This document shows positions 1 to 27,169 of a DNA stretch of 64,000 bases, one piece after another. Within the stretch, counting starts at the first letter, position 1; every line of letters begins with the position of its first letter. The notes under the pieces were generated by a model. That model searched no databases. It saw only the letters and a program-made list of their open reading frames with translations, and was not told where the DNA came from. A program made the translations under genes and the position numbers. This DNA comes from Nesterenkonia sp. LB17. GTDB lineage: Bacteria; Actinomycetota; Actinomycetes; Actinomycetales; Micrococcaceae. The stretch lies in the NCBI RefSeq assembly GCF_022565915.1, contig NZ_JAJOYX010000001.1, forward strand, positions 62,001 through 126,000, read 5' to 3'.

Positions 1-352
1 ATCCGACCGCGGTGCGCTCGTCGTAGCGCTGCACCGGGGAACCGTTGATCAGGATCTCGCCGGTGCTGCCGGTGTCGAGACCACCGACGGCGCGCAGCAG
101 CGTGGACTTGCCGCAGCCGGAGGAACCCAGGATCGCGAGCACCTCACCGGGAGCGATCTGCAGGCTGACGTCGCGCAGCACGGTGCGCGATCCGAAGGCG
201 CGGCCGACGCCGGAGAGCTGGACATCGAGTGACGTGTACTGCTGCCGGCTGTCAGGCTTGGCGGCAGCCACGGAGGTGGCGTCTGAGGGCACGGCAGGGC
301 CGGCAGCGGTTGTTGCGGTGTAGTCGGTCAGGGTGGAGGCAGGCGAAATCAT
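1..352 (-). CDS. ABC transporter ATP-binding protein, sulfonate/nitrate type (partial, 3' end outside window)
   Basis: Reading leftwards from ATG at 352, the first 117 codons are open to the window edge. After a Ser/Ala/Thr-rich lead of about 45 residues comes a typical ABC nucleotide-binding start with Walker [10 protein letters not shown]. The style ([16 protein letters not shown], then [16 protein letters not shown]) resembles SsuB/TauB/NrtD ATPases, which energise import of alkanesulfonates, taurine or nitrate. A GGGAG ribosome site sits 9 nt upstream. A SAM-I riboswitch lies directly before it, which favours a sulfur substrate. The signature, Walker B and the permease/binding-protein partners lie outside the window, so the substrate is inferred. 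Confidence 0.8.
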
Positions 353-363
353 CAGAGGATACT

Positions 364-471
364 CCCATCGATCCTGGCGGTAGCACCCGGCGAAAAGACA
401 CCCTTGCAAAGGTGCCCCTCCCTGGGTTGCTGCGGCGTCGACGAGCCAGATCTCTCGGCCGCTCGGGATGG
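364..471 (-). promoter_or_regulatory. SAM-I (S-box) riboswitch controlling the sulfonate-type ABC gene
   Basis: On the minus strand the order is CCATC, GAGCGGCCGAGAGATCTGGC, GACGCCGC, the core GCAACCC, a P3 hairpin, GGTGCTACCGCCAGGA and closing GATGG. This is the actinobacterial S-box pattern (AGA turn, GCAACC, GTGCTA-CC). P1 pairs CCATC with GATGG. The Shine-Dalgarno GGGAG begins inside the 3' strand of P1, so SAM binding should hide it and block translation of the ATG at 352. Expected effect: expression when SAM/methionine is scarce. Confidence 0.88.
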
Positions 472-481
472 TACGCGGATC

Positions 482-586: not shown

Positions 587-598
587 GAAGGCACTCAA

Positions 599-692
599 CC
601 ATCCAGAGCGACCGAGAGATCTGGCTCGAAGACGTCGCAGCAACCCGGAGGGCTTCACGGCCTCCGCCGGGTGCTAACGCCAGGACCGATGG
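599..692 (+). promoter_or_regulatory. SAM-I (S-box) riboswitch controlling metNIQ
   Basis: CCATCC opens P1; AGAGCGACCGAGAGATCTGG, GACGTCGC and GCAACCCGG follow, then a P3 hairpin, GGGTGCTAACGCCAGGA and the closing GATGG. GCGAC/GTCGC forms P2 and CCGG/CCGG closes P3. GGAG, the ribosome site of metN, starts in the closing strand of P1, 8 nt before the TTG start. This implies translational OFF control by SAM. It mirrors the riboswitch at 364-471. Confidence 0.9.
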
Positions 693-702
693 AGTATGCC
701 CC

Positions 703-1617
703 TTGATTTCCCTGTCCCATGTCTCGACGACCTTTGCCGCCCGCGGCCACGAGCCGCTGACCGCGGTCGATGACGTCAGCCTCGAGGTGCCGCGCGGCAG
801 CATCCAAGGCATCATCGGGTTCTCCGGCGCCGGCAAGTCCACGCTGCTGCGCAACATCAATCTGCTCGAGCGCCCCACCTCGGGCCAGGTCAGCGTCGCC
901 GGCACCGAGCTGACCGGCTTGGACGATGCGGCGCTGCGCCGGGCCCGGCACCAGATCGGCATGATCTTCCAGGGATTCAACCTGGTCAACAACCTCAGCG
1001 TCGCCCAGAACGTCGAGCTGTCGCTGAAGTTCGCCGGGGTCAAGGACCGCCGTGAACGTCTGCGGCGGGCGGCCGAGGCGCTGGAGATCGTGGACATCAC
1101 CGACAAGGCCTCCGTGTATCCGGCTCAGCTCTCGGGTGGTCAGAAGCAGCGCGTGGCGATCGCTCGGGCACTGGCGACCAAGCCTGAGGTGCTGCTCTGC
1201 GATGAGCCGACCTCTGCGCTGGACCCCTTCACCACTGCCACCGTGCTGCAGTACCTCGCGGATGTGAACCGTGAATTCGGCATCACCGTGGTGATCGTGA
1301 CCCACGAGATGGAAGTCATCAAGGCTCTCGCCGACAACGTCGCGGTGATGGAGGATGGGCGGGTCGTCGAGGAGTTCCCGGCGAGCGAGCTCCGCCGAGA
1401 AGGGTTCAATCCGCGGACCTCGATCGGAAAGTACCTGCTCAGCGATGGGATACGGCTGGACCGCAGCGGCCCGGCCGCGCATGGGTCGGAGTCCGGCGAG
1501 CAGAAGTCGGGTCAGTCCACGCGACGCTCCCCGCAGCACGCGGAGTCTCAGGATCAGGGTCAGACGCGCCGGTCAGAGCACGCCGCCCTGGCCGGCTCGG
1601 CAGGGGGTGTGCGCTGA
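703..1617 (+). CDS. metN: methionine ABC importer ATP-binding protein MetN
   Basis: ATPase of the MetNIQ D/L-methionine importer, peripheral on the inner face of the membrane. Walker A GFSGAGKST is at residues 39-47, the Q-loop is FQGFNLVNN, the signature LSGGQKQR, Walker B LLCDEPTSALD and the H-loop VTHE. Start is TTG at 703, fixed by the GGAG site at the end of the riboswitch. The ABC domain ends near residue 245. The remaining 60 residues are Ser/Gln/Arg-rich and look disordered; the NIL domain that lets methionine inhibit classical MetN is missing. The stop codon overlaps the metI start (TGATG). Regulation is probably by the SAM-I riboswitch alone. Confidence 0.92.
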   Translation: MISLSHVSTTFAARGHEPLTAVDDVSLEVPRGSIQGIIGFSGAGKSTLLRNINLLERPTSGQVSVAGTELTGLDDAALRRARHQIGMIFQGFNLVNNLSVAQNVELSLKFAGVKDRRERLRRAAEALEIVDITDKASVYPAQLSGGQKQRVAIARALATKPEVLLCDEPTSALDPFTTATVLQYLADVNREFGITVVIVTHEMEVIKALADNVAVMEDGRVVEEFPASELRREGFNPRTSIGKYLLSDGIRLDRSGPAAHGSESGEQKSGQSTRRSPQHAESQDQGQTRRSEHAALAGSAGGVR

Positions 1618-2285
1618 TGGACCTCGTCATCGAGCGGCTTCCCGAGATCAACCAGGCCATGCTGGAGACCTTCGCGATGATCGGGGTCGCCATCCCGGTG
1701 GCGGTCCTGCTGGGCACCCCGCTGGGGATCTGGCTCTTCGTCCACGCTCCCGACGGACTGGCGCCGCGGCCACGGTCTCATGCGATCGTCTCCGGGGTGG
1801 TGAACATGATCCGGTCCTTCCCGTTCCTGATCCTGCTCATCGCCATCATCCCGTTCACCCGGTTCGTGGTCGGCACCTCGGTGGGCACCGCCGCGGTGAT
1901 CGTCCCGCTGACGATCAACGCCATCCCCTACTTCGCCCGTCTGGTGGAGCAGAACATCACCCAGCTGGGCTCCGGTGCGGTGGAGGCGTCCCGGGCGATG
2001 GGCGCCACGCGCGGGCAGATCATCCGCAACGTGCTGCTCGTCGACGCCAAGCCCGGACTGATCGGCTCCATCACCATCACCACGGTCAGCTTCATCTCCT
2101 ATTCGGCGATGTCAGGGCTGGTCGGCGGCGGGGGCATCGGTGACCTGGCGATCCGCTACGGCTACTACCGCTATGAGACCCCCACCATGATCGCCGCCAT
2201 CGTACTGATGGTGCTGCTGGTGACTCTGGTGCAGTTCGCCGGCACCCGGCTCGCCCGGGCCTCGGACCGGCGCGTCACCGCCTGA
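1617..2285 (+). CDS. metI: methionine ABC importer permease MetI
   Basis: 222 residues, the family's usual size, with about five hydrophobic segments. The EAA loop that docks on MetN is visible as VEASRAMGATRGQIIRNVLL. The start overlaps the metN stop, so translation is coupled. Forms the transmembrane channel of the MetNIQ importer. The stop codon lies in the first unit of a 17-nt tandem repeat. Confidence 0.92.
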   Translation: MDLVIERLPEINQAMLETFAMIGVAIPVAVLLGTPLGIWLFVHAPDGLAPRPRSHAIVSGVVNMIRSFPFLILLIAIIPFTRFVVGTSVGTAAVIVPLTINAIPYFARLVEQNITQLGSGAVEASRAMGATRGQIIRNVLLVDAKPGLIGSITITTVSFISYSAMSGLVGGGGIGDLAIRYGYYRYETPTMIAAIVLMVLLVTLVQFAGTRLARASDRRVTA

Positions 2286-2362
2286 CCGCGATCACCGCAT
2301 GACCGAGATCCTCGCCTGACCGAGATCACCGTCTGAGCAGGATCTTCGCCTGACCCGCGCAT
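2278..2362 (+). repeat. 17-nt degenerate tandem repeat spanning the metI stop codon
   Basis: Five units of about 17 nt (core CGCCTGACCGAGATCA with changes) start at 2278, 2295, 2312, 2329 and 2346. Each carries a TGA at the same place. Because 17 is not a multiple of three, the TGAs fall in all three frames. The rest of the gap to metQ (2363-2492) shows nothing recognisable. Confidence 0.55.
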
Positions 2363-2492
2363 CCGCGGAACGGCAACACCACCCCGCATCACCTCGCTCC
2401 GCTGCCAGGGCTGGCGTCCGACGTCGCGCCCTGGTCATTCCCGCACACCCTCTGGGCACATGTCGCCCAGCCATAGAAAGCAGCCCAAACCC

Positions 2493-3365
2493 ATGAACGC
2501 TCTACGCCCCGCGATCCTCACCGGCGCAGTCCTCTCCGCCGCAGCCCTGAGCCTGACCGGCTGCGGGCTGGTGGAGGATGATTCCACCATCAGCATCGTG
2601 GTCACCGAATCCGCGCCCTTCCAGGAGCCCGCCGAGATCGCCGCCGAGCTGCTCGCGGAGCAGGGCTACGAGCTGGACATCACCTATATGACCGATATCG
2701 TCCAGCCCAACCAGGTGGTCAACCAGGGCGAGTTCGAGGGCAACTACTTCCAGCACCTGGCCTATCTGAACAACTTCAACCAGTCCAACGACACGCAGGT
2801 CGAGCCGCTGTTCTCGGTGTACTACGCCCCCGCCGGGCTGTTCTCACTGGAATACGACTCCCTCGAGGAGCTGCCCGACGGGGCCGAGATCAACCTGCCG
2901 GTGGATCCCTCGAACAACGGCCGGGCGCTGCAGCTGCTCGCCGATGAGGGCCTGATCGAGATCGACGAGTCCGTCTCGATCATCGAACTGACCCAGAACG
3001 ACATCACGGAGAACCCCCGGGACTTCAAGTTCGTGGAGACCGACCAGCAGTCAGCTGCGCAGGTGCTGCCCGACGTCGACGCCGGCTTCGCCTTCGTCCG
3101 GCTGATCGCCGAGGCCGACCTGGACCTCGAGGAGACCACGCTCAGCATCGAGGACGGACGCGAAGAGGTGCGCACCCCGTTCACCTGCGTGGTCGCCGTC
3201 GGACCGGACGGGGTCACCGATGAACAGGCCCAGGCGCTTCAGGACGCCTTCCAGTCCGAAGAGGTCGAACAGTGGTTCGAGGAGTACCAGGGCGGGGTCA
3301 TCGACTTCGAGGACTTCATCACTATCGACAACGCCGAAGAGATCTGGGCGGACTTCAGCGCATGA
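2493..3365 (+). CDS. metQ: methionine-binding lipoprotein MetQ (copy 1)
   Basis: NlpA/MetQ family substrate-binding protein that delivers methionine to MetNI, anchored outside the membrane. I chose ATG 2493 over ATG 2460 because it gives a clean Sec lipoprotein signal: hydrophobic stretch then LTGC with the lipid-modified Cys at 24. Family features include VTESAPFQEPAEIAAELL and YMTDIVQPNQVVNQGEFEGN. 290 residues, normal length. Its stop overlaps the next metQ start by ATGA. Separated from metI by about 200 nt, so it may also have its own promoter, though I see none. Confidence 0.9.
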   Translation: MNALRPAILTGAVLSAAALSLTGCGLVEDDSTISIVVTESAPFQEPAEIAAELLAEQGYELDITYMTDIVQPNQVVNQGEFEGNYFQHLAYLNNFNQSNDTQVEPLFSVYYAPAGLFSLEYDSLEELPDGAEINLPVDPSNNGRALQLLADEGLIEIDESVSIIELTQNDITENPRDFKFVETDQQSAAQVLPDVDAGFAFVRLIAEADLDLEETTLSIEDGREEVRTPFTCVVAVGPDGVTDEQAQALQDAFQSEEVEQWFEEYQGGVIDFEDFITIDNAEEIWADFSA

Positions 3366-4264
3366 GCACATCCAGCGCCCCCACGCTCTCCCGGCGTCGA
3401 GTATTGAGCGGTTCACTGGGCATGGCCGCTCTGCTCGGCGTCGGGAGCCTCACCTCGGGATGCGGCCTCGCCGGCGGGGCCGGCGCCGACCGCAGCCTGC
3501 GCCTGGTGGTCACCGAGAACGCCCCCTTCCAGGAGCCGACCCGCATCGCCCAGCGCATCCTGGAGGCCGATGGCTGGGAGTTCAACGCCACCTACGTCAC
3601 CGACATCATCCAACCCAACCACGCGGTGAGCAACGGCGAATACGACGTCAACTTCTTCCAGAACATCAGCTATCTGCGCCAGTTCAACGCGGACAACGAC
3701 CTCGACATCGAGCCGATCTTCTTCATGTTCGAGCAGCCCTCGGGGATCTACTCCGCGCAGCACGACTCGCTGGAGGAGCTCCCGGACGGCGCCCAGATCG
3801 CGCTGCCGGTGGACACCGCGAACAACGGGCGCGGGATCCGGCTGCTCGCCCGCGGAGGTCTGATCGAGATCGATGAGTCCAAGCCTGTCGCCGCGCTGAG
3901 CGTCCGGGACATCACCGCCAACCCCAAGGACCTGCAGTTCATCGAGGTGGACCAGCAGTCGGTGGGGCAGATCTACGCGGATGTCGACGCCGTCTTCGGC
4001 TTCGCCCGGCTGCTGGCCGAGATCGATGTGCTCCCCGACGAGGTGCTGATCATGGAATCAGCCGAGGAGGCGCTGCCCTTCGCGCTCGCGGTCTGCGCGC
4101 GCCCGGGCTTCCGCGAGGAACAGCCCGAGCGCTTCGAGGCGCTCAAGGCCGCCTACCACTCCGCGGAGGTGCGTGAGTGGTACGGCGAGTACCTCGACGG
4201 TCTGCTCAACCCCGCCTTCGACCGAGACATCGACGCCGCATGGAAACAGGTGAACGACGCATGA
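3362..4264 (+). CDS. metQ: methionine-binding lipoprotein MetQ (copy 2, Tat-type signal)
   Basis: A second NlpA/MetQ family binding protein, clearly a paralogue of the preceding one (VTENAPFQEPTRIAQ, YVTDIIQPNHAVSNGEYD in the same places). Start is the ATG overlapping the upstream stop. The signal differs: twin-arginine SRRRVL at residues 10-15, a hydrophobic segment, then TSGC with the lipid Cys at 34. It therefore probably leaves the cell folded through Tat, whereas copy 1 uses Sec. The two proteins may bind different ligands (D/L-methionine, methionine sulfoxide or a related thioether); this is inference. Confidence 0.88.
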   Translation: MSTSSAPTLSRRRVLSGSLGMAALLGVGSLTSGCGLAGGAGADRSLRLVVTENAPFQEPTRIAQRILEADGWEFNATYVTDIIQPNHAVSNGEYDVNFFQNISYLRQFNADNDLDIEPIFFMFEQPSGIYSAQHDSLEELPDGAQIALPVDTANNGRGIRLLARGGLIEIDESKPVAALSVRDITANPKDLQFIEVDQQSVGQIYADVDAVFGFARLLAEIDVLPDEVLIMESAEEALPFALAVCARPGFREEQPERFEALKAAYHSAEVREWYGEYLDGLLNPAFDRDIDAAWKQVNDA

Positions 4265-5481
4265 GCCGCACCATCCCTGAAGAGCTCCTGACCCGCATCC
4301 GAGAAGGCGCCGTACAGCGTGAGCTGGAGCGGATCCTGCCCTTCGAGCAGGTCGGCTGGCTCGACGACGTCGGCTTCGGCGCGCTGCGCGTGCCGACCGA
4401 GTTCGGCGGCGAGGAGCTCAGCATCGAGGGGCTCATCGCCGAGGTGATCGCGCTCGCCGAGGCAGATTCCAACATCGCCCACCTCTACCGCGGGCATTTC
4501 GGGTTCGTCGAGTCGCTGCGCTTCCAACCTGCGCCGGTGCGCGAGCTCTGGTACGCCCGGGTGCTCAAGGGCGGCACGGTGGGCAATGCCTCCACGGAGA
4601 AGGGCGGCAACGCGTTGGGCAGCCTGAACACCCGATTGGACCGCGACGAGCATGGCGCGGCGCTGCTCACGGGCGAGAAGTGCTACTCCACCGGCACGAT
4701 CTTCTCGACCTACACCCGCGTCTCAGCTTCTCAGGCCCAGGAAGGGGAGGGGCGACGCTTCGCTGTGGTGCCCACAGACGCCGCCGGGGTGACCCTGCTC
4801 GATGACTGGGACGGCTTCGGGCAGAAGCTCACCGGCACCGGCACCACGCGGCTGGACTCCGTGGCGGTGGAGGACCTCGCGGTGCTCGGACGCAGCCCGG
4901 GCGATCACGAATCCGTCCACGAGGCGGCGTTCTTCCAGCTCTACCTGCTCGCCGTCCAAGCAGGAATCGCCAAGGCGGCCCTGGCAGATGCCACGTCCAC
5001 ACTGGCCCGGCGCACCCGCACCTTCAACACCTCCACCGCCGGGCAGGCCTTCAGCCAGGATCCGCTGATCCAGCAGGTGGTCGGGAAGATGTCCTCTAAG
5101 GCCTTCGTGGCCGAGGCCGCCGTGCTGCAGGCGGCCCGCACCCTGGACCGGGCACTGGCAGCGGGCCTGCAGGCCGGCACCGGCGGCCCCGAGTTCCATG
5201 GCGAACCACCGGTTCAGATCCATGATGCGGAGATCGCCGTGGAGAAGGCCCAGATCAGTGTGCCGGAGCTGGTCCTGGCGGTGACCTCGGAGCTGTTCCA
5301 GACCGTGGGCGCCTCCGCCACGCTGCGCACCAAGGCGCTGGACAGGCATTGGCGCAATGCGCAGACCATCGCCACCCACAACCCGGTCGTCTTTCGCGCC
5401 CGCTCACTGGGCGACCATGAGATCAACGGCACCCTGCCCCAGGGGCTCAACGCGATCGGCGAGGCCAAGGAGAAACCATGA
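4261..5481 (+). CDS. acyl-CoA dehydrogenase-family flavoprotein, SfnB/DszC-like
   Basis: 406 residues with the acyl-CoA-dehydrogenase fold signature: an N-terminal helical part (PTEFGGEELSIEGLIAEV), a middle beta domain (GNASTEKGGNALGSLNT; LTGEKCYSTGTIFS) and a C-terminal helical bundle (ELFQTVGASATLRTKALDRHWRNAQT). The THNPVVFRAR ending is typical of the SfnB/SfnC/DszC flavin monooxygenase branch, used to scavenge sulfur from sulfones or thioethers. Start ATG overlaps the metQ2 stop (ATGA); the stop overlaps the next gene the same way. Operon context with SAM-controlled methionine uptake supports a sulfur acquisition role; the exact substrate is unknown. Confidence 0.82.
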   Translation: MSRTIPEELLTRIREGAVQRELERILPFEQVGWLDDVGFGALRVPTEFGGEELSIEGLIAEVIALAEADSNIAHLYRGHFGFVESLRFQPAPVRELWYARVLKGGTVGNASTEKGGNALGSLNTRLDRDEHGAALLTGEKCYSTGTIFSTYTRVSASQAQEGEGRRFAVVPTDAAGVTLLDDWDGFGQKLTGTGTTRLDSVAVEDLAVLGRSPGDHESVHEAAFFQLYLLAVQAGIAKAALADATSTLARRTRTFNTSTAGQAFSQDPLIQQVVGKMSSKAFVAEAAVLQAARTLDRALAAGLQAGTGGPEFHGEPPVQIHDAEIAVEKAQISVPELVLAVTSELFQTVGASATLRTKALDRHWRNAQTIATHNPVVFRARSLGDHEINGTLPQGLNAIGEAKEKP

Positions 5482-6893
5482 CCATCCATTTCAACGCCTT
5501 CGACATGCTGGTCCCGGTGCATCAGTCGCCGGGCCTGTGGCGCCACCCAGAGTCGCGGATCGCAGAGTTCGACACGCTCGAGTACTGGACCGAGCTGGCC
5601 CGCACCGTGGAGCGGGCAGGCTTCTCATCCTTGTTCCTGGCTGACATCCCCGGGGTCTATGACGTCTACGGCGGCACCGCCGAGGCAGCTGCCCGCGGTG
5701 GAGTGCAGTTCCCGCTGCTGGACCCGCAGGTCATCGTGCCGGCGCTCGCCGCGGCCACCACACACCTGGGATTCGGGCTGACCGCCTCGGTGACCTATGA
5801 GGCTCCGTACGCCCTCGCTCGGCGCTTCGCCACCCTGGATCACCTCACTCGGGGCAGGATCGCGTGGAACATCGTCACCAGCTATCAGGACTCCGCGGCG
5901 CGCAATCTCGGACTTGCCACACAGATCCCGCATGACGAGCGCTACGACCGCGCAGACGAGTACCTCGAAGTGATGTACAAGCTCTTCGAGCACTCCTTCG
6001 AAGACGGCGCGGTCCTCGCGGACAAGTCCACCGGGGTCTTCGTGGATCCGGAGAAGGTCCACCCGATCGACCACCAGGGAGAGTGGTTCACCGTGCCCGG
6101 GGAGATGCTCACCCACCCAGGACCGCAGCGCACCCCGCTGCTCTTCCAGGCGGGGTCCTCCGCGCGGGGACAGAAGTTCGCGGTGGACCATGGCGAGGCG
6201 ATCTTCGTGGTCAGCTCGTCCCCGCAGCGGCTGGCTGTTCAGGTCTCCGAGACCGGCAGGGCACTGTTGGAGGCCGGGCGTGATCCCGAATCCGTGCGGT
6301 TCTTCGCCATGGCCACGATCATCGTGGCCGAGACCGAGGAGCTGGCACAGGCGCGGCTCGCCGAATACCGCGAGTATGTGGACACCGCCTCGGCACTGAC
6401 GCTCTTCGGCGGGTGGACCGGGGTGGATCTCTCGGATCTGCGCGAGGACGACGTCGTCGCCGATGTGCAGACCGAGGCCAATCAGTCGGCGCTGGCGATG
6501 TTCACCAAGGACCCGTCCAAGCACTGGACGGTGCGAGATGTCGCGGAGTTCATCTCCATCGGTGGGCGCGGGCCGCTGATCGTGGGAGACCCGGTGCAGG
6601 TCGTCGATGAGCTGGTCCGGTTCAAGGAGCTCTCCGGGGTGGATGGGTTCAACATCTCGGCCGCAGTGCGGCCCGCGGACTTTGAACGCTTCGAGACCTT
6701 CGTGACTCCGGAGCTGCGCCGACGAGGTCTGCTGCCCCAGCGCCCCGAGACCCCGGTGACGCTGCGCGAGGCGCTGTTCGAAGATGGGCCGCACCTGCGC
6801 GCGGATCATCCCGCGCGCCGGGCTTCTCAGCGTGAGGCGCGCAGCAGGATCTCGTCGGCGATCGCGCCGGCGACGTCTCTCGGCTCTCCGTAG
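5478..6893 (+). CDS. LLM-class flavin-dependent monooxygenase, NtaA/SnaA/DszA type
   Basis: 471 residues, usual for the two-component bacterial-luciferase-like NtaA/DszA/SfnG group, which uses reduced FMN from a separate reductase. Recognisable parts: FSSLFLADIPGVYDVYGG, HLGFGLTASVTYEAPYALAR, TLDHLTRGRIAWNIVTSYQD, HPGPQRTPLLFQAGSSARG. Start overlaps the previous stop by ATGA. Together with the preceding flavoprotein it probably oxidises an organosulfur compound and releases sulfite or a thiol. No flavin reductase gene is adjacent. The last 67 nt overlap the convergent gene ending at 6827; the tail beyond about residue 440 is poorly conserved in appearance. Confidence 0.85.
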   Translation: MTIHFNAFDMLVPVHQSPGLWRHPESRIAEFDTLEYWTELARTVERAGFSSLFLADIPGVYDVYGGTAEAAARGGVQFPLLDPQVIVPALAAATTHLGFGLTASVTYEAPYALARRFATLDHLTRGRIAWNIVTSYQDSAARNLGLATQIPHDERYDRADEYLEVMYKLFEHSFEDGAVLADKSTGVFVDPEKVHPIDHQGEWFTVPGEMLTHPGPQRTPLLFQAGSSARGQKFAVDHGEAIFVVSSSPQRLAVQVSETGRALLEAGRDPESVRFFAMATIIVAETEELAQARLAEYREYVDTASALTLFGGWTGVDLSDLREDDVVADVQTEANQSALAMFTKDPSKHWTVRDVAEFISIGGRGPLIVGDPVQVVDELVRFKELSGVDGFNISAAVRPADFERFETFVTPELRRRGLLPQRPETPVTLREALFEDGPHLRADHPARRASQREARSRISSAIAPATSLGSP

Positions 6894-7792
6894 GCGGGCA
6901 GGTGGGCGCGGCTGATATCGGCATCCGGCAGCACCGCCAGGACGACGGCGCCCTCGGCCGACTCGAGGTCCGGAACCTGCAGATCGACCGCGGCCGCGAA
7001 GAGTCCCGGCACCGCCATGACCGCCTCCACCGCAAGCTCGTGCAGAGCATCGGGCAGCACCGTGGTCACATCGATGGTCAGCCCGCCCGCCGAGATCTCC
7101 AGCGAGTCCTGCAGCTGCACGGGGACACCTCGTGCGGGCACGTCGTCGGGATCAAGGCCCCGGCTGCGCAGCTGGTCCTGCGCAGCGGGGGTCGAGCCGT
7201 CGGCAGGGACGGGCACCGCGGTGCCGGCGAGCAGCGCGTGCCGACTGCGCGCCTGGGCATCGGCCTGCATCAGCTGGCTCAATGTTGAGCTGCCGTCGCC
7301 GAGGACCGTGGCGGGCAGTCGCAGCAGGGAGGCGCAGACCCGCTCGCCGACGACGAAGGCGCGGATCGCGGAAGGCGCTGGGCGCACGACGGTCGTGCCA
7401 GGATCAGCGGCGCCCTGGTCGCCTGTGCGCTGGTCACCCGAGTCCGGATCAGCGTCAGCCTGATCTGTGTGAGTCTGATCGGCATCGTTCTGCTCCGCTG
7501 GCAGCGGCACCTCTTGGAGCTGCAGGTGCCGACGCAGGAGCTGCGGATCCGCAGTGATCCGGCGCGCGTGGGCGCTCACCAGTGTCGTCACCACCGAGTC
7601 CATCCCGCCGACGACCACGCCGCCGAAGACGAAGACCTGGCTGTGCTCGCCCACAGGCTTCAGCGTCACCCGCCTGCGCCGCAGGGCTCGGCGCAGAAGC
7701 TGGTCATGGCGCGGGGCCTCGGGGTGTTCGTTCAGTGTTCGGGTGCCGAGGGTCTCGACGATCAGTCGGGCGGCGGATGTCTCAGTCGGCAT
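6827..7792 (-). CDS. degenerate ATP-grasp-like protein
   Basis: 321 residues from ATG 7792. That start is supported by TATCCT seven bases upstream, fitting a leaderless transcript. Parts match the ATP-grasp domain of cyanophycin-synthetase/GshAB-type ligases: IRAFVVGERVCASLLRLPA followed by VLGDGSSTLSQLMQADAQAR. An acidic, Gln/Asp-rich insert with repeating DQTHTDQADADPD character (about residues 105-135) separates an N-terminal GGVVVGGMDSVVTTLVSAHA block. The usual Mg-binding end of the fold is weak (DLQVPDLESAEGAVVLAVLP). Enzyme activity is uncertain. Its 3' end overlaps the monooxygenase gene on the other strand. Confidence 0.6.
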   Translation of the reverse strand: MPTETSAARLIVETLGTRTLNEHPEAPRHDQLLRRALRRRRVTLKPVGEHSQVFVFGGVVVGGMDSVVTTLVSAHARRITADPQLLRRHLQLQEVPLPAEQNDADQTHTDQADADPDSGDQRTGDQGAADPGTTVVRPAPSAIRAFVVGERVCASLLRLPATVLGDGSSTLSQLMQADAQARSRHALLAGTAVPVPADGSTPAAQDQLRSRGLDPDDVPARGVPVQLQDSLEISAGGLTIDVTTVLPDALHELAVEAVMAVPGLFAAAVDLQVPDLESAEGAVVLAVLPDADISRAHLPAYGEPRDVAGAIADEILLRASR

Positions 7793-7799
7793 AGGTCTC

Positions 7800-7805
7800 A
7801 GGATA
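7800..7805 (-). promoter_or_regulatory. -10 element, leaderless start
   Basis: TATCCT on the minus strand, 7 nt before the ATG at 7792, which would be the first transcribed codon or nearly so. Confidence 0.45.
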
Positions 7806-7879
7806 TAGGTTGGCCGTGGGACCGCCCCCATTCTCAGAGGCGAGCACCCACGGCCGTCACTGCTTGTCAGTGCCTGAAG

Positions 7880-8410
7880 TCAGCGTCCGTTGCTCCCGGA
7901 GGGCTTGGTGGACGAGTCGGTGTTGCTGCTCGAGGACGAGTCGGTGTTGCTGCTCGAGGACGAGTCGGTGTTGCTGCTCGAGGACGAGTCGGTGTTGCTG
8001 CTCGAGGACGAGTCGGACGAGCCGGTGCCGCCGGAGGACTGGCGGGCCTTCTCATCCGCCGCGTCGGCCTGCTTCTCGACCTTCTCGGCGGCCTGATCGA
8101 CCAGCTTCTCGGCGCTGCTGCCGGCCTTCTTCACGGTGTCTTCGGCGCGCGCGGCGGCGTCGATCGCCACGTCGGCCACCGGAGTGGCGGCGTCGTTGGC
8201 GTGCTTCTTGACCGAGTCGGCCACGGTGGAGACGTACTGCTTGGCAGTCTCTCCGGCCTTGGTCACGGTCTCCTGGACCTTGGGGTCCTTCCAGGTCTCC
8301 GCGGCGTTCTTCTTCACGGCGTTGAGGCTCCGCTCGAATTCTGCCTTGCCGCGCTTGCTGCCGATGATGTAGCCGATGGCTACGCCGGCGCCCAGTGTGA
8401 ACAGTCGCAT
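7880..8410 (-). CDS. YtxH-like membrane-anchored protein with Ser/Asn repeat tail
   Basis: 176 residues. ATG 8410 is preceded by GGAG at a good distance; a TTG two codons earlier is less likely. Residues 1-18 form a membrane segment with a glycine motif (AIGYIIGSKRGKAEFE) typical of YtxH/gas-vesicle-related stress proteins. A long Ala/Lys/Glu amphipathic helical stretch follows (KKAGSSAEKLVDQAAEKVEK), probably coiled coil. The C terminus is four perfect copies of an 8-residue unit, DSSSSSNT, then a short basic end. It likely sits in the membrane with its helical part in the cytoplasm; function unknown, possibly envelope stress. Confidence 0.75.
   Translation of the reverse strand: MRLFTLGAGVAIGYIIGSKRGKAEFERSLNAVKKNAAETWKDPKVQETVTKAGETAKQYVSTVADSVKKHANDAATPVADVAIDAAARAEDTVKKAGSSAEKLVDQAAEKVEKQADAADEKARQSSGGTGSSDSSSSSNTDSSSSSNTDSSSSSNTDSSSSSNTDSSTKPSGSNGR
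7911..8016 (-). repeat. 24-bp perfect tandem repeat inside the YtxH-like gene
   Basis: Four identical 24-bp units (7911, 7935, 7959, 7983) plus a 10-bp partial fifth. Each encodes DSSSSSNT. Since 24 is divisible by three, copy-number change would lengthen or shorten the tail without a frameshift. Confidence 0.9.
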
Positions 8411-8416
8411 GGTCAA

Positions 8417-8610: not shown

Positions 8611-9033
8611 TCAGCCGAGCGTCGCGGTGCGCGGGTCCAGCTGGTCCGTCGCGCCCGGCACCGGCTCGGCCGGGTCGTGGCCGAGCGCCACGATCCGGTT
8701 CTCACCGTCCACATGGACCACCTGCGGCTCGTGGGAGGCGAGCTCGAGCGCGTCCAGCATCACGTAGCTGATCAGGATGATCAGGTCCCCTGGATCCACC
8801 AGGTGGGCGGCGGCGCCGTTGATCCCGATGACACTCGATCCGCGCGGACCAGCGATGGTGTAGGTCTCCAGGCGTGCACCGTTGGTGATGTCGACCACCT
8901 GGACCTTCTCGCCCTCGACGATCCCTGCCGCGTCGAGCAGATCGGCGTCCACGGTGATGGACCCCACGTAGTGCAGGTCCGCGTGGGTCACGGTGGCGCG
9001 GTGGATCTTGCCGCCCATGACGGTCCTCAGCAT
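8611..9033 (-). CDS. panD: aspartate 1-decarboxylase (pro-enzyme)
   Basis: Decarboxylates L-aspartate to beta-alanine for pantothenate and coenzyme A. The pro-enzyme self-cleaves between Gly24 and Ser25 ([10 protein letters not shown]) to make the pyruvoyl group. Other family features: [32 protein letters not shown]. 140 residues, normal. The start [15 protein letters not shown] matches known PanD starts. Downstream of the P-type ATPase gene on the same strand with a 46-nt gap, so it may be co-transcribed. Confidence 0.95.
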
Positions 9034-9079: not shown

Positions 9080-11674
9080 TTATCCAGCGTCCGAGCCGAG
9101 CCCGGTATTCCCGGGCGCGGGCCGCCGTGTGGTCAGCGCCGTGACGGCCCGGCTCCCGACCTCGACGAGCCCGCAGCCCAGGATGCTGGAGACGATCGCC
9201 GCCACCAGCAGCTCGGTCGAGGGCATCACGAAGAGGTGGTACTGCACAGATATGGGGAGCAGGAGCACCGCGGCGAGGAGCAGGTACATGGTCCCGATCA
9301 GGGCCACCCGCGGCCACGTCAGCGGGCGCAGCGCCACATTGAGCACCCAGAGGCCCACCGCGGTCAGGCACAGCGTCGTGGCGGTCTGGATCGCCGCGGA
9401 GGGCGCTTCGAGGTAACGGCCGAAGGCGCTGACCGTGACCACTGCGAGCACGATCGCGATCGCCGTCGGGATGGAGAAGAGCATCGAGCGGCGGAGGAAC
9501 CCCGGTCGGTAGAGCCGCGGATTGGGCATCAGGGCGAGGAAGAACGCCGGGAATCCGATCATGAGGAAGTCCACGGTCGAGAACTGACGGGGAAGGAACG
9601 GGAACTCCCAGAAGAGCAGCCCGTAGATCAGCCCGAGCAGGATCGCATAGGCGGTCTTGGACAGGAACAGGTGCGCCACCCGCTCGGTGTTGGCGATGAC
9701 CTTGCGGCCCTGTTCCAGCACCGAGGGGAGCCGGTCGAAGCGACCGTCGAGCAGCACCATCCGAGAGACCGCCTTGGTGGCCGGTGCGCCGTCGCCCATG
9801 GCGATCCCCAGGTCAGCCTTCTTCATGGCCAGGGCGTCGTTGACTCCGTCGCCGGTCATCGCCACGACGTGTCCGGCAGACTTCAGCGCCTCCACCATGG
9901 TGCGCTTCTGCTCGGGGGAGACCCGGCCGAACACCGAATGGTGTTCCAACGTCTCGCGCAGCGCCACGGGGTCTTCTGGCAGCGCGGAGGCGTCCACGGC
10001 GTCGCCTTCGATGACCATGCCCACCTCGCGGGCCACCGCGGCGGCCGTCTTGGGGGAGTCGCCGGAGATCACCTTCAGCGCGATGTTCTGCTCACGGAAA
10101 TACTGAAGCGTGGCATGGGCCTCGGGACGGACGTTCTCCTTGAAGGTCAGCAGCGCCACCGGGACCATTCCCTGCGGCAGTCGCTGCCCCCGGCCGAGCG
10201 GCCCGGTGTCGCCGTCGATGATCGGGCCGTCCAAGGGCGCGTGGGCGAGCAGCATCGTGCGCAGTCCCCGGCTGGAGAGCTCCTCGGTGCGGTTCAGCAG
10301 CTGCTCCGTGCGCACCTGCGGGTCGGTGGAGTCCCCGCGGAGGATCTCCGGGGCGCCCAGCACCCAGTGCCCGGCGAGACCGCCGGCGTCCGCGGCGAAG
10401 CTCACGGCGGAGAAACGCCTGGCCGAGGAGAACTGGACCTGACTGGCCACCCGGTGCCGAGGCAGGGCCGTGTAGGGTGCGCGCAGCGCCGCCGCGGTGG
10501 CGTTCGCGCCCTCATCGGCGCCGAAGAAGGCCAGCACCTGCTCCCACTCGGCGGTCCCCTCCAGCGCGGTGGACCCCGGGTCGCGGCGGGCCGGGGCGGG
10601 AAGCCCGCGCGGACTCAGCGCGGTGGCCCGGTGGAAGGCGATGGTGCCGTCGGTGAGCGTGCCGGTCTTGTCCAGACAGACCACATCCACCCGGGCCAGG
10701 ATCTCCACGGCCGGCTGCTCCTGGAGCAGCACGTTCTCCCGGGAGAGCTTCACGGCGGCCACGGCGAAGGCGATGGTCGTCATCAGGGCCAGCCCCTGGG
10801 GGATCATCGCGGTGACCGAGGACACCGAGGTGACCAGCGCGTCCCGCCACTGGCCCGACTCCCAGGCGGTGTTCCAGCCGCCGAAGGCCTGCATCTGGCC
10901 GTTGAGCACCACCGCCACGATGGGCAGCAGCACCATGGAGAGCCAGAAGGCGATCTTCTCCATCGCGCGGCGCAGCTCCGAGTTGATCTTCTGATATCGC
11001 TTCGCCTCGGTGGCCAGCCTCACCGCATGGGCCCGTTCCCCCACGGCAGTCACCCGGAATCTTCCGGATCCCGCCACCACGGCGGTCCCGGAGAGGATCC
11101 GGTCGTCGCGGCGCTTGGCCACGGCATCGGACTCCCCGGTGAGCATCGATTCGTCCACGTCGAGCCCCTCGGCGCTGAGCACCGCGCCGTCGGCGGGGAT
11201 CTCGTCGCCGCGGCGCAGCTCGACGACGTCGTCGAGCACGATCTGTTCGCGGTGGATCTGCAGGAGCATCCCGTCCCGCAGCACCCGCACATCGTCCTGG
11301 TGCAGCAGCGCGATGGCATCAAGCTTGCGCTTGGCGCTGTACTCCTGGAAGAGCCCGATGAAGACGTTGGCCACCGCTGCGACCGCGAAGAGCAGGTCCA
11401 GCCAGCGTCCCAGCAGGATGATGGCCAGTGCACAGAGCCCGATGATGAGATTGAACAGCGTCATCAGGTGGGTGCGCAGAATGTCGGTGATCGAGCGCGA
11501 GGTGGTTCGCGGCTGGACGTTCGCCAGTCCCAGCCGGTTTCGCTCCAGCACCTGCACCGAGCTCAGACCAGCGGTTTCGAGCGTCTTGGGGTCCACGGCA
11601 GACCTTGTCTCCGCGGTGTCGCGGATCGCAGTCCTCTGGGCAGCCACAGGGCCAGAGTCTACAGTTCGGATCAA
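9080..11674 (-). CDS. P-type cation-transporting ATPase, CtpE-like
   Basis: 864 residues, ten or so membrane segments. Actuator motif LTGES, phosphorylation site DKTGTLTDG, hinge motif [20 protein letters not shown]. The C-terminal half ([20 protein letters not shown], then six hydrophobic segments) resembles mycobacterial CtpE, reported as a calcium-uptake ATPase. It lacks N-terminal heavy-metal-binding CxxC domains. Start ATG 11674 overlaps the upstream gene's stop (ATGA), so both are one operon. Cation specificity cannot be read reliably from sequence. Confidence 0.85.
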
Positions 11675-26929: not shown

Positions 26930-26979
26930 CGCAGGAGGAGAGCTCGAGCCGGAGCTCGAGCATCCGAGTGAAGATTCTC

Positions 26980-27060
26980 GACTTCCTTCGCAGGTCCTAA
27001 CCTGATCAGGTGCGAGGGTCTGGGCCTTCAGCCCACTCTCAGCGCCCTGCCGGCGGAATC
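26980..27060 (-). promoter_or_regulatory. TPP (THI-box) riboswitch
   Basis: On the minus strand GCTGAGAGTGGGC is followed by GACCCTCGCACCTGATCAGG, TTAGGACCTGCGAAGGAA. CTGAGA, ACCTGATC and GCGAAGGAA are the conserved thiamine-pyrophosphate-binding cores. AGGG/CCCT closes P2 and GGGC/GCCC closes P3; GATTCC with GGAAGTC forms a bulged P1. It should switch off the YkoE transporter when TPP is plentiful. Confidence 0.92.
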
Positions 27061-27169
27061 ATGGCTTTTCAGCCGCGTTCTTCCGTCGAGGGGCGCTCCC
27101 CTGTCGTGTCTCAAATGACGTGCACTAGAGTAACACCAGGACATCGACCCACCCCCTGAGGAGAACATT

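Follow-up and report, generated by a model that had tools for sequence, protein, structure and literature searches.

Why should an importer of the methionine type be encoded in one operon with two flavin-dependent monooxygenases, and what would such an operon bring into the cell? The question is raised by positions 703 to 6893 of a 64,000-nucleotide stretch from Nesterenkonia sp. LB17 (contig NZ_JAJOYX010000001.1, positions 62,001 to 126,000; the window in what follows). The host genome comprises 2.82 Mb in 10 contigs and is 99.7% complete. The answer that we favor, with slightly better than even confidence, is a methionine-starvation operon that scavenges organic sulfur by import, S-oxygenation, C–S cleavage to a thiol and capture of the thiol by MetY. 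Sulfur scavenging under the control of S-adenosylmethionine (SAM) is well supported by the anatomy and context of the locus.

Gene identities were assigned with Pfam and NCBIfam profiles. The operon and its leader consist of the following features:

596–695, forward strand: SAM-I riboswitch of the metN operon (Rfam RF00162, 50.3 bits, E = 1.4e-08, gathering score 44.4)
599–603 with 688–692, forward strand: helix P1 of the metN leader, CCATC with GATGG (from sequence and fold)
691–694, forward strand: Shine-Dalgarno sequence GGAG of metN, overlapping the 3' strand of helix P1 (from sequence and fold)
703–1617, forward strand: metN, MetN-like ATP-binding cassette (ABC) ATPase without a C-terminal NIL domain (304 amino acids, TTG start; TIGR02314, 273 bits)
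1617–2285, forward strand: metI, MetI-like permease (222 amino acids; NF008049, 205.3 bits against a cut-off of 212; PF00528)
2493–3365, forward strand: metQ1, NlpA-family lipoprotein with an altered ligand site (PF03180, 182.5 bits; AlphaFold2 model)
3362–4264, forward strand: metQ2, second NlpA-family lipoprotein with an altered ligand site (PF03180, 154.8 bits)
4261–5481, forward strand: sfnB1, SfnB/DszC/MsuC-like group D flavin monooxygenase of the acyl-CoA dehydrogenase fold (TIGR04022, 274.2 bits)
5478–6893, forward strand: nta1, NtaA/DmoA-family group C flavin monooxygenase (TIGR03860, 480.8 bits)

All six genes are co-directional, with junctions from metN to nta1 of -1, +207, -4, -4 and -4 nt. 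The initial annotation gave the operon coordinates and the stop-start overlaps, interrupted by the one 207-nt gap, correctly; its count of five genes is an error, as its own list holds six (metN, metI, metQ1, metQ2, the SfnB/DszC-like gene and the NtaA/DmoA-like gene). The operon is a genuine unit but part of a larger island under SAM control, which is presented below. The components of a MetNIQ-type importer are all present (PF03180 twice, PF00528 and PF00005). The match of MetN to TIGR02314 is limited to profile positions 1–242 of 343, its 273 bits fall below the cut-off of 499.7, and a NIL domain was not found on this protein in the Pfam scan. An open reading frame of 334 amino acids without a Pfam match (6827–7831, reverse strand) is convergent to the operon, and its 3' end overlaps that of nta1 by 67 nt.

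The ligand pockets of the two lipoproteins were compared with that of Neisseria meningitidis MetQ, in which methionine is contacted by Y81, F98, H100, Y103, R156, N213 and N238, and in which the N238A substitution alone reduces the affinity for methionine by a factor of more than 1e5 (PMC6739813). The thioether side of MetQ1 is formed by I69, F86, H88 and Y91, and the head-group side by R144, F201 (then R203) and C232. The corresponding residues of MetQ2 are I82, F99, N101 and Y104 on the thioether side and R157, F214 (then R216) and L242 on the head-group side. The equivalents of N213, N238 and Y81 are replaced in both proteins, and that of H100 also in MetQ2; R156, F98 and Y103 are kept. The N213 position aligns to F201 with MAFFT and hhalign (the broken rows of locus L055 being excluded from the hhalign profiles) or to R203 with phmmer, and the asparagine is lost either way.

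The same loss extends to the relatives. Among 41 homologs in relatives' loci, asparagine appears at the N213 column in none (one is gapped) and at the N238 column in one. N213 is lost in 16 and N238 in 15 of 17 MetQ homologs from the named loci, eight of which belong to Nesterenkonia genomes already covered by the 41-homolog alignment; both residues are kept only in L205. Among the nine other proteins, that of L205 keeps both asparagines and that of L155 keeps N238, and the MetQ genes of L166 and L196 lie 7–8 kb from SfnB. The asparagine pair is kept in four solved chains of the MetQ family, which served as a yardstick, and in the MetQ that the host encodes on contig 6.

The AlphaFold2 model of MetQ1 has a predicted local distance difference test score (pLDDT) of 84.3. 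A structural search with this model, which informs on the fold only and gives no residue mapping, returned the MetQ fold, with MetQ-type chains at Z scores of 22.1–26.5 and the next families at approximately 16. R203, which is nearly invariant in the alignment and stands two residues after the lost asparagine position, is placed by the model at the start of helix 202–207. Because this helix follows a strand whose last residue is F201, R203 may line the cleft. The combination of R144 and R203 suggests that the ligand is anionic and has no amino-acid head group; any small thioether or sulfoxide with a negative charge would be a candidate. The alignments support the view that neither MetQ1 nor MetQ2 is a canonical methionine binder and that the ligand of the importer is not simply methionine. 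An operon for plain methionine uptake was rejected on the state of these pockets.

The pockets also bear on a second explanation, a parallel regulon in which MetNIQ would import methionine, a stereoisomer or S-oxide of it, or a methionyl peptide, while the two enzymes would act independently on dimethyl sulfide (DMS) or on SsuABC substrates, the shared operon reflecting a common response to low SAM. MetN, MetI and MetQ do belong to families of methionine importers, but both MetQ proteins have lost the asparagine pair that holds methionine, one member of which is worth the more than 1e5-fold loss of affinity seen for N238A (PMC6739813). Moreover, a MetQ with a canonical pocket and the only NIL-bearing MetN found in the genome are both encoded on contig 6, where no SAM riboswitch was found. 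A second SfnB–Nta pair that adjoins ssuBAC without MetNIQ in the same island is in keeping with independent enzymes. In Rhodococcus IGTS8, a MetN, a MetQ, a MetY and an NtaA-like protein are taken, from their position in a table ahead of the proteins lowered on dibenzothiophene, as raised on it, and their locus numbers are not those of one operon (PMC8557817).

Across 30 Nesterenkonia genomes, orthologs of metI (at least 76% identity) and sfnB1 (at least 63% identity) are both found in 23 and neither is found in 7 (G001, G004, G006, G013, G016, G022 and G029), with G017 and G025 partly in pieces. The synteny is kept across Nesterenkonia and in three Arthrobacter/Pseudarthrobacter loci, and metN–metI adjoins a relative of sfnB1 outside the genus in G030 and G058. 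The association of the importer with two flavin enzymes in the initial annotation is supported by the conservation of the operon, and similar enzyme pairs adjoin other types of importer elsewhere.

The importers next to relatives of SfnB1 were classified in 31 named loci (L133–L163; SfnB1 relatives of at least 49% identity, the best 31 of 79 loci), of which L133–L137 and a few others come from the same genomes as in the genome set. The adjoining importer is MetNIQ in 8 loci (five Nesterenkonia, two Arthrobacter and one Pseudarthrobacter), a symporter of the major facilitator superfamily (MFS) in 10, and an Opp/Nik-type ABC importer in 5; none was detected in 8. The MFS protein scores somewhat below the TIGR00883 cut-off, and its gene often lies between sfnB1 and nta1. 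Pantoea and Chimaeribacter (L207 3341–10155, L208 and L186) carry a co-directional run for an NtaA-like protein, MetN, MetI, a variant MetQ, a probable MFS protein (identified by eye) and an SfnB-like protein. The MetQ of this enterobacterial run is also without the asparagine pair and has P/Y/H/W/Q/Y/S in place of the canonical pocket. Because different importers repeatedly accompany the enzyme pair, it is suggested that the importer feeds the enzymes, although this is not a rule, given the loci without an importer. The parallel regulon accounts for the 23 of 31 named loci in which a relative of SfnB1 has no MetNIQ alongside, but less readily for the recurrence of the enzyme pair beside several importer types, and it is considered unlikely. 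No description of this gene combination was found in literature searches covering titles, the beginnings of abstracts and passages, with subscription papers mostly outside their reach.

The two enzymes were assigned by comparison with profiles and solved structures. The best match of SfnB1 in the PDB is the methanesulfinate monooxygenase MsuC (6u76), followed by DszC-type enzymes; a PADLOC scan of SfnB1 gave no match. Nta1 and its paralog in the island, Nta2, pass the cut-off of 279.7 for the NtaA/DmoA family (TIGR03860) with 480.8 and 541.5 bits, respectively. The nearest solved relative of both is the DMS monooxygenase DmoA (6ak1, presumably from Hyphomicrobium), with 460 bits for Nta1 and 523 bits for Nta2. 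YtnJ, which we take to be CmoJ, is matched with 191 and 253 bits, respectively, below the scores for DmoA. Group D enzymes in Acinetobacter oxidize DMS to dimethyl sulfoxide (DMSO) and dimethyl sulfone (PMC13352529), and CmoJ, which is homologous to DszA and YxeK, cleaves the C–S bond of a sulfoxide to leave a sulfenic acid (PMC10863075). Because group D enzymes oxidize DMS and DMSO and CmoJ cleaves the C–S bond of a sulfoxide, S-oxygenation by SfnB1 and subsequent C–S cleavage by Nta1 is, by analogy, a sound guess.

The resemblance of SfnB1 to MsuC and DszC, together with the adjoining ssuBAC genes, would also suit a sulfonate or sulfone pathway that ends in sulfite, as in the Ssu/Msu/Sfn or 4S (Dsz) routes. 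This end product was compared with the gene content of the host. The only protein of the NIR_SIR family (PF01077) found in the host genome is NirB (TIGR02374, 875 bits, cut-off 578); neither a two-domain sulfite reductase nor a PF01507 protein (CysH/CysD type) was found in this genome, and the host appears unable to use ordinary sulfate. Since sulfite reductase and CysH/CysD are not detectable, a pathway that releases sulfite would be useless to the host. It would not feed growth here, whereas a thiol, sulfenate or sulfide could do so via MetY, which constrains the product. Seven luciferase-like proteins were found, and none reaches the cut-off for SsuD or SfnG. A two-domain sulfite reductase is present in 10 of the 23 operon-bearing genomes of the genus, as a sulfite pathway would have it, and was not found in the other 13. 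The 4S/Ssu/Msu route to sulfite was rejected as the principal explanation for this host, and we regard it as quite improbable. Of the oxidative desulfurization proposed in the initial annotation, the company of importer and enzymes speaks for the general idea; sulfite as its end product does not fit a genome with no detectable sulfite reductase or protein of the 3'-phosphoadenosine 5'-phosphosulfate reductase family.

The two-domain reductase is found in 12 of the 30 Nesterenkonia genomes, and its presence or absence changes 7 times along the rpoB tree. In close relatives such as G012, a SAM riboswitch precedes a gene of the sulfite/nitrite reductase family and, after it, CysH-, CysD- and CysN-like genes; this reductase is judged from its neighborhood to act on sulfite. 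The cluster of sulfite reductase, cysH and cysD is present in the close relatives G012 and G021 and was not found in the host genome. A test for a link between the operon and the loss of sulfite reductase showed no association in either direction: 10 genomes have both, 13 have the operon only, 2 the reductase only and 5 neither (Fisher p = 0.67; G017 was scored from pieces, and G006, G008, G017 and G025 are only 62–82% complete).

Salvage of S-alkylcysteines in the manner of CmoO/CmoJ of Bacillus subtilis, in which imported S-alkyl cysteines are oxidized and dealkylated to cysteine, is very improbable: the amino-acid type of importer, the matches of Nta1 and Nta2 to YtnJ and a sulfenate product that requires no sulfite reductase (PMC10863075) are set against MetQ sites that have lost their contacts to an amino-acid head group, a nearest solved relative that is DmoA and not YtnJ, and a dependence on N-acetylation and deacetylation for which no acetyltransferase or deacetylase of the CmoO/CmoJ type is found among the annotated island genes (a genome-wide search was not made).

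The operon belongs to an island of approximately 17.5 kb that crosses the left edge of the window, with approximately 10.6 kb lying to the left of it in a stretch of DNA denoted L006. The further features at and beyond this edge are:

1–352, reverse strand: 5' part of the SsuB-like ATPase gene, an open frame that continues outside the window (L006 16468–17352; NF008420, 225 bits against a cut-off of 395)
362–474, reverse strand: divergent SAM-I riboswitch of the ssuBAC operon (Rfam RF00162, 45.2 bits), its GGGAG overlapping the 3' strand of P1
L006 10942–11028, reverse strand: further island SAM-I riboswitch
L006 11291–11377, forward strand: further island SAM-I riboswitch

Three units accompany the metN operon. 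The first, in L006, runs leftward behind one riboswitch and encodes a CoA-binding protein, MetY (TIGR01326, 593 bits, above the cut-off of 495), an acetate–CoA ligase and a flavin reductase. The second runs rightward behind its own riboswitch and encodes the second SfnB-like protein (TIGR04022, 219.4 bits, below the cut-off of 430.9) and the second NtaA-like protein, Nta2. The third is leftward, also with its own riboswitch, contains ssuC, ssuA and ssuB in left-to-right order, and is divergent to the metN operon. Four of the five SAM-I riboswitches of the genome lie within the island as two divergent pairs. The fifth (L007 5001–5096, forward strand; contig 3 near 770.8 kb) is followed by an OsmC-like gene (PF02566, L007 5097–5762, forward strand) and a sodium/solute symporter gene (5540–7408, forward strand).

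Both riboswitches in the window exceed the curated gathering score of RF00162 (44.4), with 50.3 and 45.2 bits. The CCATC/GATGG pairing of helix P1 is possible in all four island leaders and is contained in the minimum-energy fold of three, the exception being the sfnB2 leader. In these leaders the Shine-Dalgarno sequence (GGAG, GGGAG or GGAGG) begins within the 3' strand of P1, the first base of which is 13–17 nt upstream of the start codon. A Shine-Dalgarno-like run at this strand was found in 94 of 102 riboswitch cores (loci L006, L007 and L038–L077), the 102 being those in which the strand was located by a pattern; 21 further cores were not matched by it. Genes matching metN at more than 60% identity are found in 27 of 44 scanned loci, and a SAM-I core lies no more than 190 nt upstream in 27 of the 27, an association that exceeds chance. 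P1 and the Shine-Dalgarno sequence overlap in 23 of these 27 loci (exceptions L065, L155, L158 and L160). From this anatomy the ribosome-binding site of metN is predicted to be occluded directly by P1. The control would be of an ordinary kind, because direct occlusion by P1 has already been described for SAM-I riboswitches; direct regulation by SAM-I is reportedly commonest in Actinobacteria and Cyanobacteria (PMC2258182). The riboswitch architecture as a novelty was dismissed, since a ribosome-binding site in P1 is already published (PMC2258182).

A SAM riboswitch also lies roughly 90–220 nt before the match to SfnB1 in five further genera of the family (G040, G043, G044, G048 and G049). In Arthrobacter sp. 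H14 (L154), a SAM-I riboswitch (8800–8888) precedes sfnB1 and a SAM-IV riboswitch (10239–10363) precedes the MFS gene next in line.

Two further claims of the initial annotation agree with these results. SAM control is supported by the anatomy, with the SAM-I match, the overlap of P1 with the Shine-Dalgarno sequence and the SAM core at all 27 metN loci. The statement that the operon would serve "not methionine alone" is supported by the loss of the head-group asparagines, by the missing NIL domain of MetN and by the location of the canonical MetNIQ elsewhere in the genome.

The proposed course of events is as follows. When SAM is plentiful it would be bound by the leader RNA, P1 would form and the ribosome-binding site of metN would be buried; at a shortage of SAM or methionine the operon would be translated. 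MetQ1 and MetQ2, acting on the NIL-less MetNI, would import one or two small organosulfur compounds, probably not methionine, that retain an anionic group and a tail that is a thioether or something similar. SfnB1 would oxygenate the sulfur and Nta1 would then cleave the C–S bond oxidatively, an order that we infer, with reduced flavin for both presumably supplied by the flavin reductase of the neighboring SAM-controlled operon. Because no sulfite reductase was found in the host genome, the sulfur is expected to be released as a thiol, sulfenate or sulfide and not as sulfite. MetY, encoded in the same island, could then combine it with O-acetylhomoserine, yielding homocysteine or methionine.

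Several observations weigh against this scavenging operon. SfnB1 is below the cut-off of the SfnB equivalog TIGR04022 (274.2 versus 430.9 bits) and far below that of the DszC equivalog NF043015 (113.6 versus 850 bits). Import of the Ssu type usually belongs to a sulfonate route that leads to sulfite, and 10 of the genomes that carry the operon do have a sulfite reductase, so that sulfite would be usable there. Another MetQ of the same genome (contig 1, 197 kb), not beside SfnB, is likewise without the asparagine pair. That metI and sfnB1 occur together counts for less as evidence because they are neighbors and a single deletion could remove both. Nta1 is found in 18 genomes of the genus (in pieces in G017) and is absent from 5 of the 23 operon carriers (G005, G007, G010, G025 and G028). 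The operon changes state approximately 5 times on the rpoB tree of 28 genus genomes, which omits two of the 30 (G006, without a match, and G017, in pieces) and does not contain enough independent changes for a sign test. Coupling is not strict, the metI ortholog and sfnB1 lying on different contigs in G044 and G049, and in 8 of the 31 named loci no importer beside the SfnB1 relative was detected by the queries used. An Rfam scan of 8 of the 79 named loci, all 8 outside Nesterenkonia, gave a SAM-type riboswitch in 3 (L138, L152 and L154), and no SAM riboswitch was found in G069.

A more specific form of the scavenging operon is a sulfite-independent route, which is put forward tentatively as possible but not probable. 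A MetNIQ that has moved away from methionine would carry a small anionic thioether (a methylthio-carboxylate, for example, with 3-methylthiopropionate as a guess) or its sulfoxide, SfnB1 and Nta1 would release methanethiol or another thiol through S-oxidation and oxidative cleavage of the C–S bond, and MetY would convert the thiol directly to methionine or homocysteine. This route, governed by SAM riboswitches, would sustain bacteria that lack sulfate assimilation, and the importer (MetNIQ, Opp-type or MFS) would be swapped with the substrate. If true, "methionine importer" would be a misnomer for MetNIQ systems encoded next to flavin monooxygenases in some of the Actinobacteria and Enterobacterales, genomes without sulfate assimilation would have a dedicated organosulfur diet, and the loci would illustrate how one importer replaces another while the enzyme pair is conserved. 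Both MetQ proteins, SfnB1, Nta1 and the flavin reductase make up a small, directly testable set that could give substrates to enzymes named only by resemblance.

Other features were noted in passing. The window contains a thiamine pyrophosphate riboswitch (26966–27112, reverse strand, 57.5 bits). A perfect 24-bp tandem repeat of 4.5 copies (7910–8016) lies inside an open reading frame without a Pfam match (7880–8416, reverse strand) and encodes a Ser/Asn/Thr/Asp-rich repeat near the C-terminus. A radical-SAM-like protein (L007 106–1755, reverse strand) has an apparent intein-like stretch after CVYC that ends in VVSHN, as judged by eye from the translation.

The operon can be compared with known systems at each level. 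It shares the three components and their folds with a canonical MetNIQ importer and differs from it in the missing NIL domain, the missing asparagine pair in both MetQ proteins, the two metQ genes and the SAM riboswitch. The metN leader has the same placement of the ribosome-binding site, on the 3' side of P1, as known SAM-I riboswitches with direct attenuation of translation; there is no essential difference, and the leaders stand out only as four copies in two divergent pairs.

Nta1 and Nta2 belong to the same family as DmoA, which is counted among the C–S cleaving flavoenzymes (PMC10863075); a figure legend shows DmoA/B instead as oxidizing DMS to DMSO (PMC13352529). A DmoA-like thiol product would fit a genome with no detected sulfite reductase. 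The Nta enzymes differ in context, as they stand together with a group D enzyme, importers and SAM riboswitches. The assimilation of DMS by Acinetobacter baylyi ADP1 (Dms1-3, SfnG, MsuC and SsuD) likewise uses group D S-oxygenases and group C C–S lyases with one shared flavin reductase, but ends in sulfite for cysteine synthesis (PMC13352529), whereas the host has no detected sulfite reductase and no SsuD or SfnG passing its cut-off. The DszC–DszA part of the 4S pathway, which also ends in sulfite (PMC8557817), likewise combines an S-oxygenase of the acyl-CoA dehydrogenase fold with an NtaA-family lyase. It differs from the operon in control and importer, and SfnB1 is far from the DszC cut-off. 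CmoO presumably has a luciferase-like fold, whereas the S-oxygenase of the operon is of group D. The B. subtilis CmoO/CmoJ pair is otherwise similar, with two flavoenzymes for sulfoxidation and then C–S cleavage to a sulfenate (PMC10863075). The operon is thus a combination of known kinds: MetNIQ importers, desulfurization by two-component flavin monooxygenases and SAM-I control.

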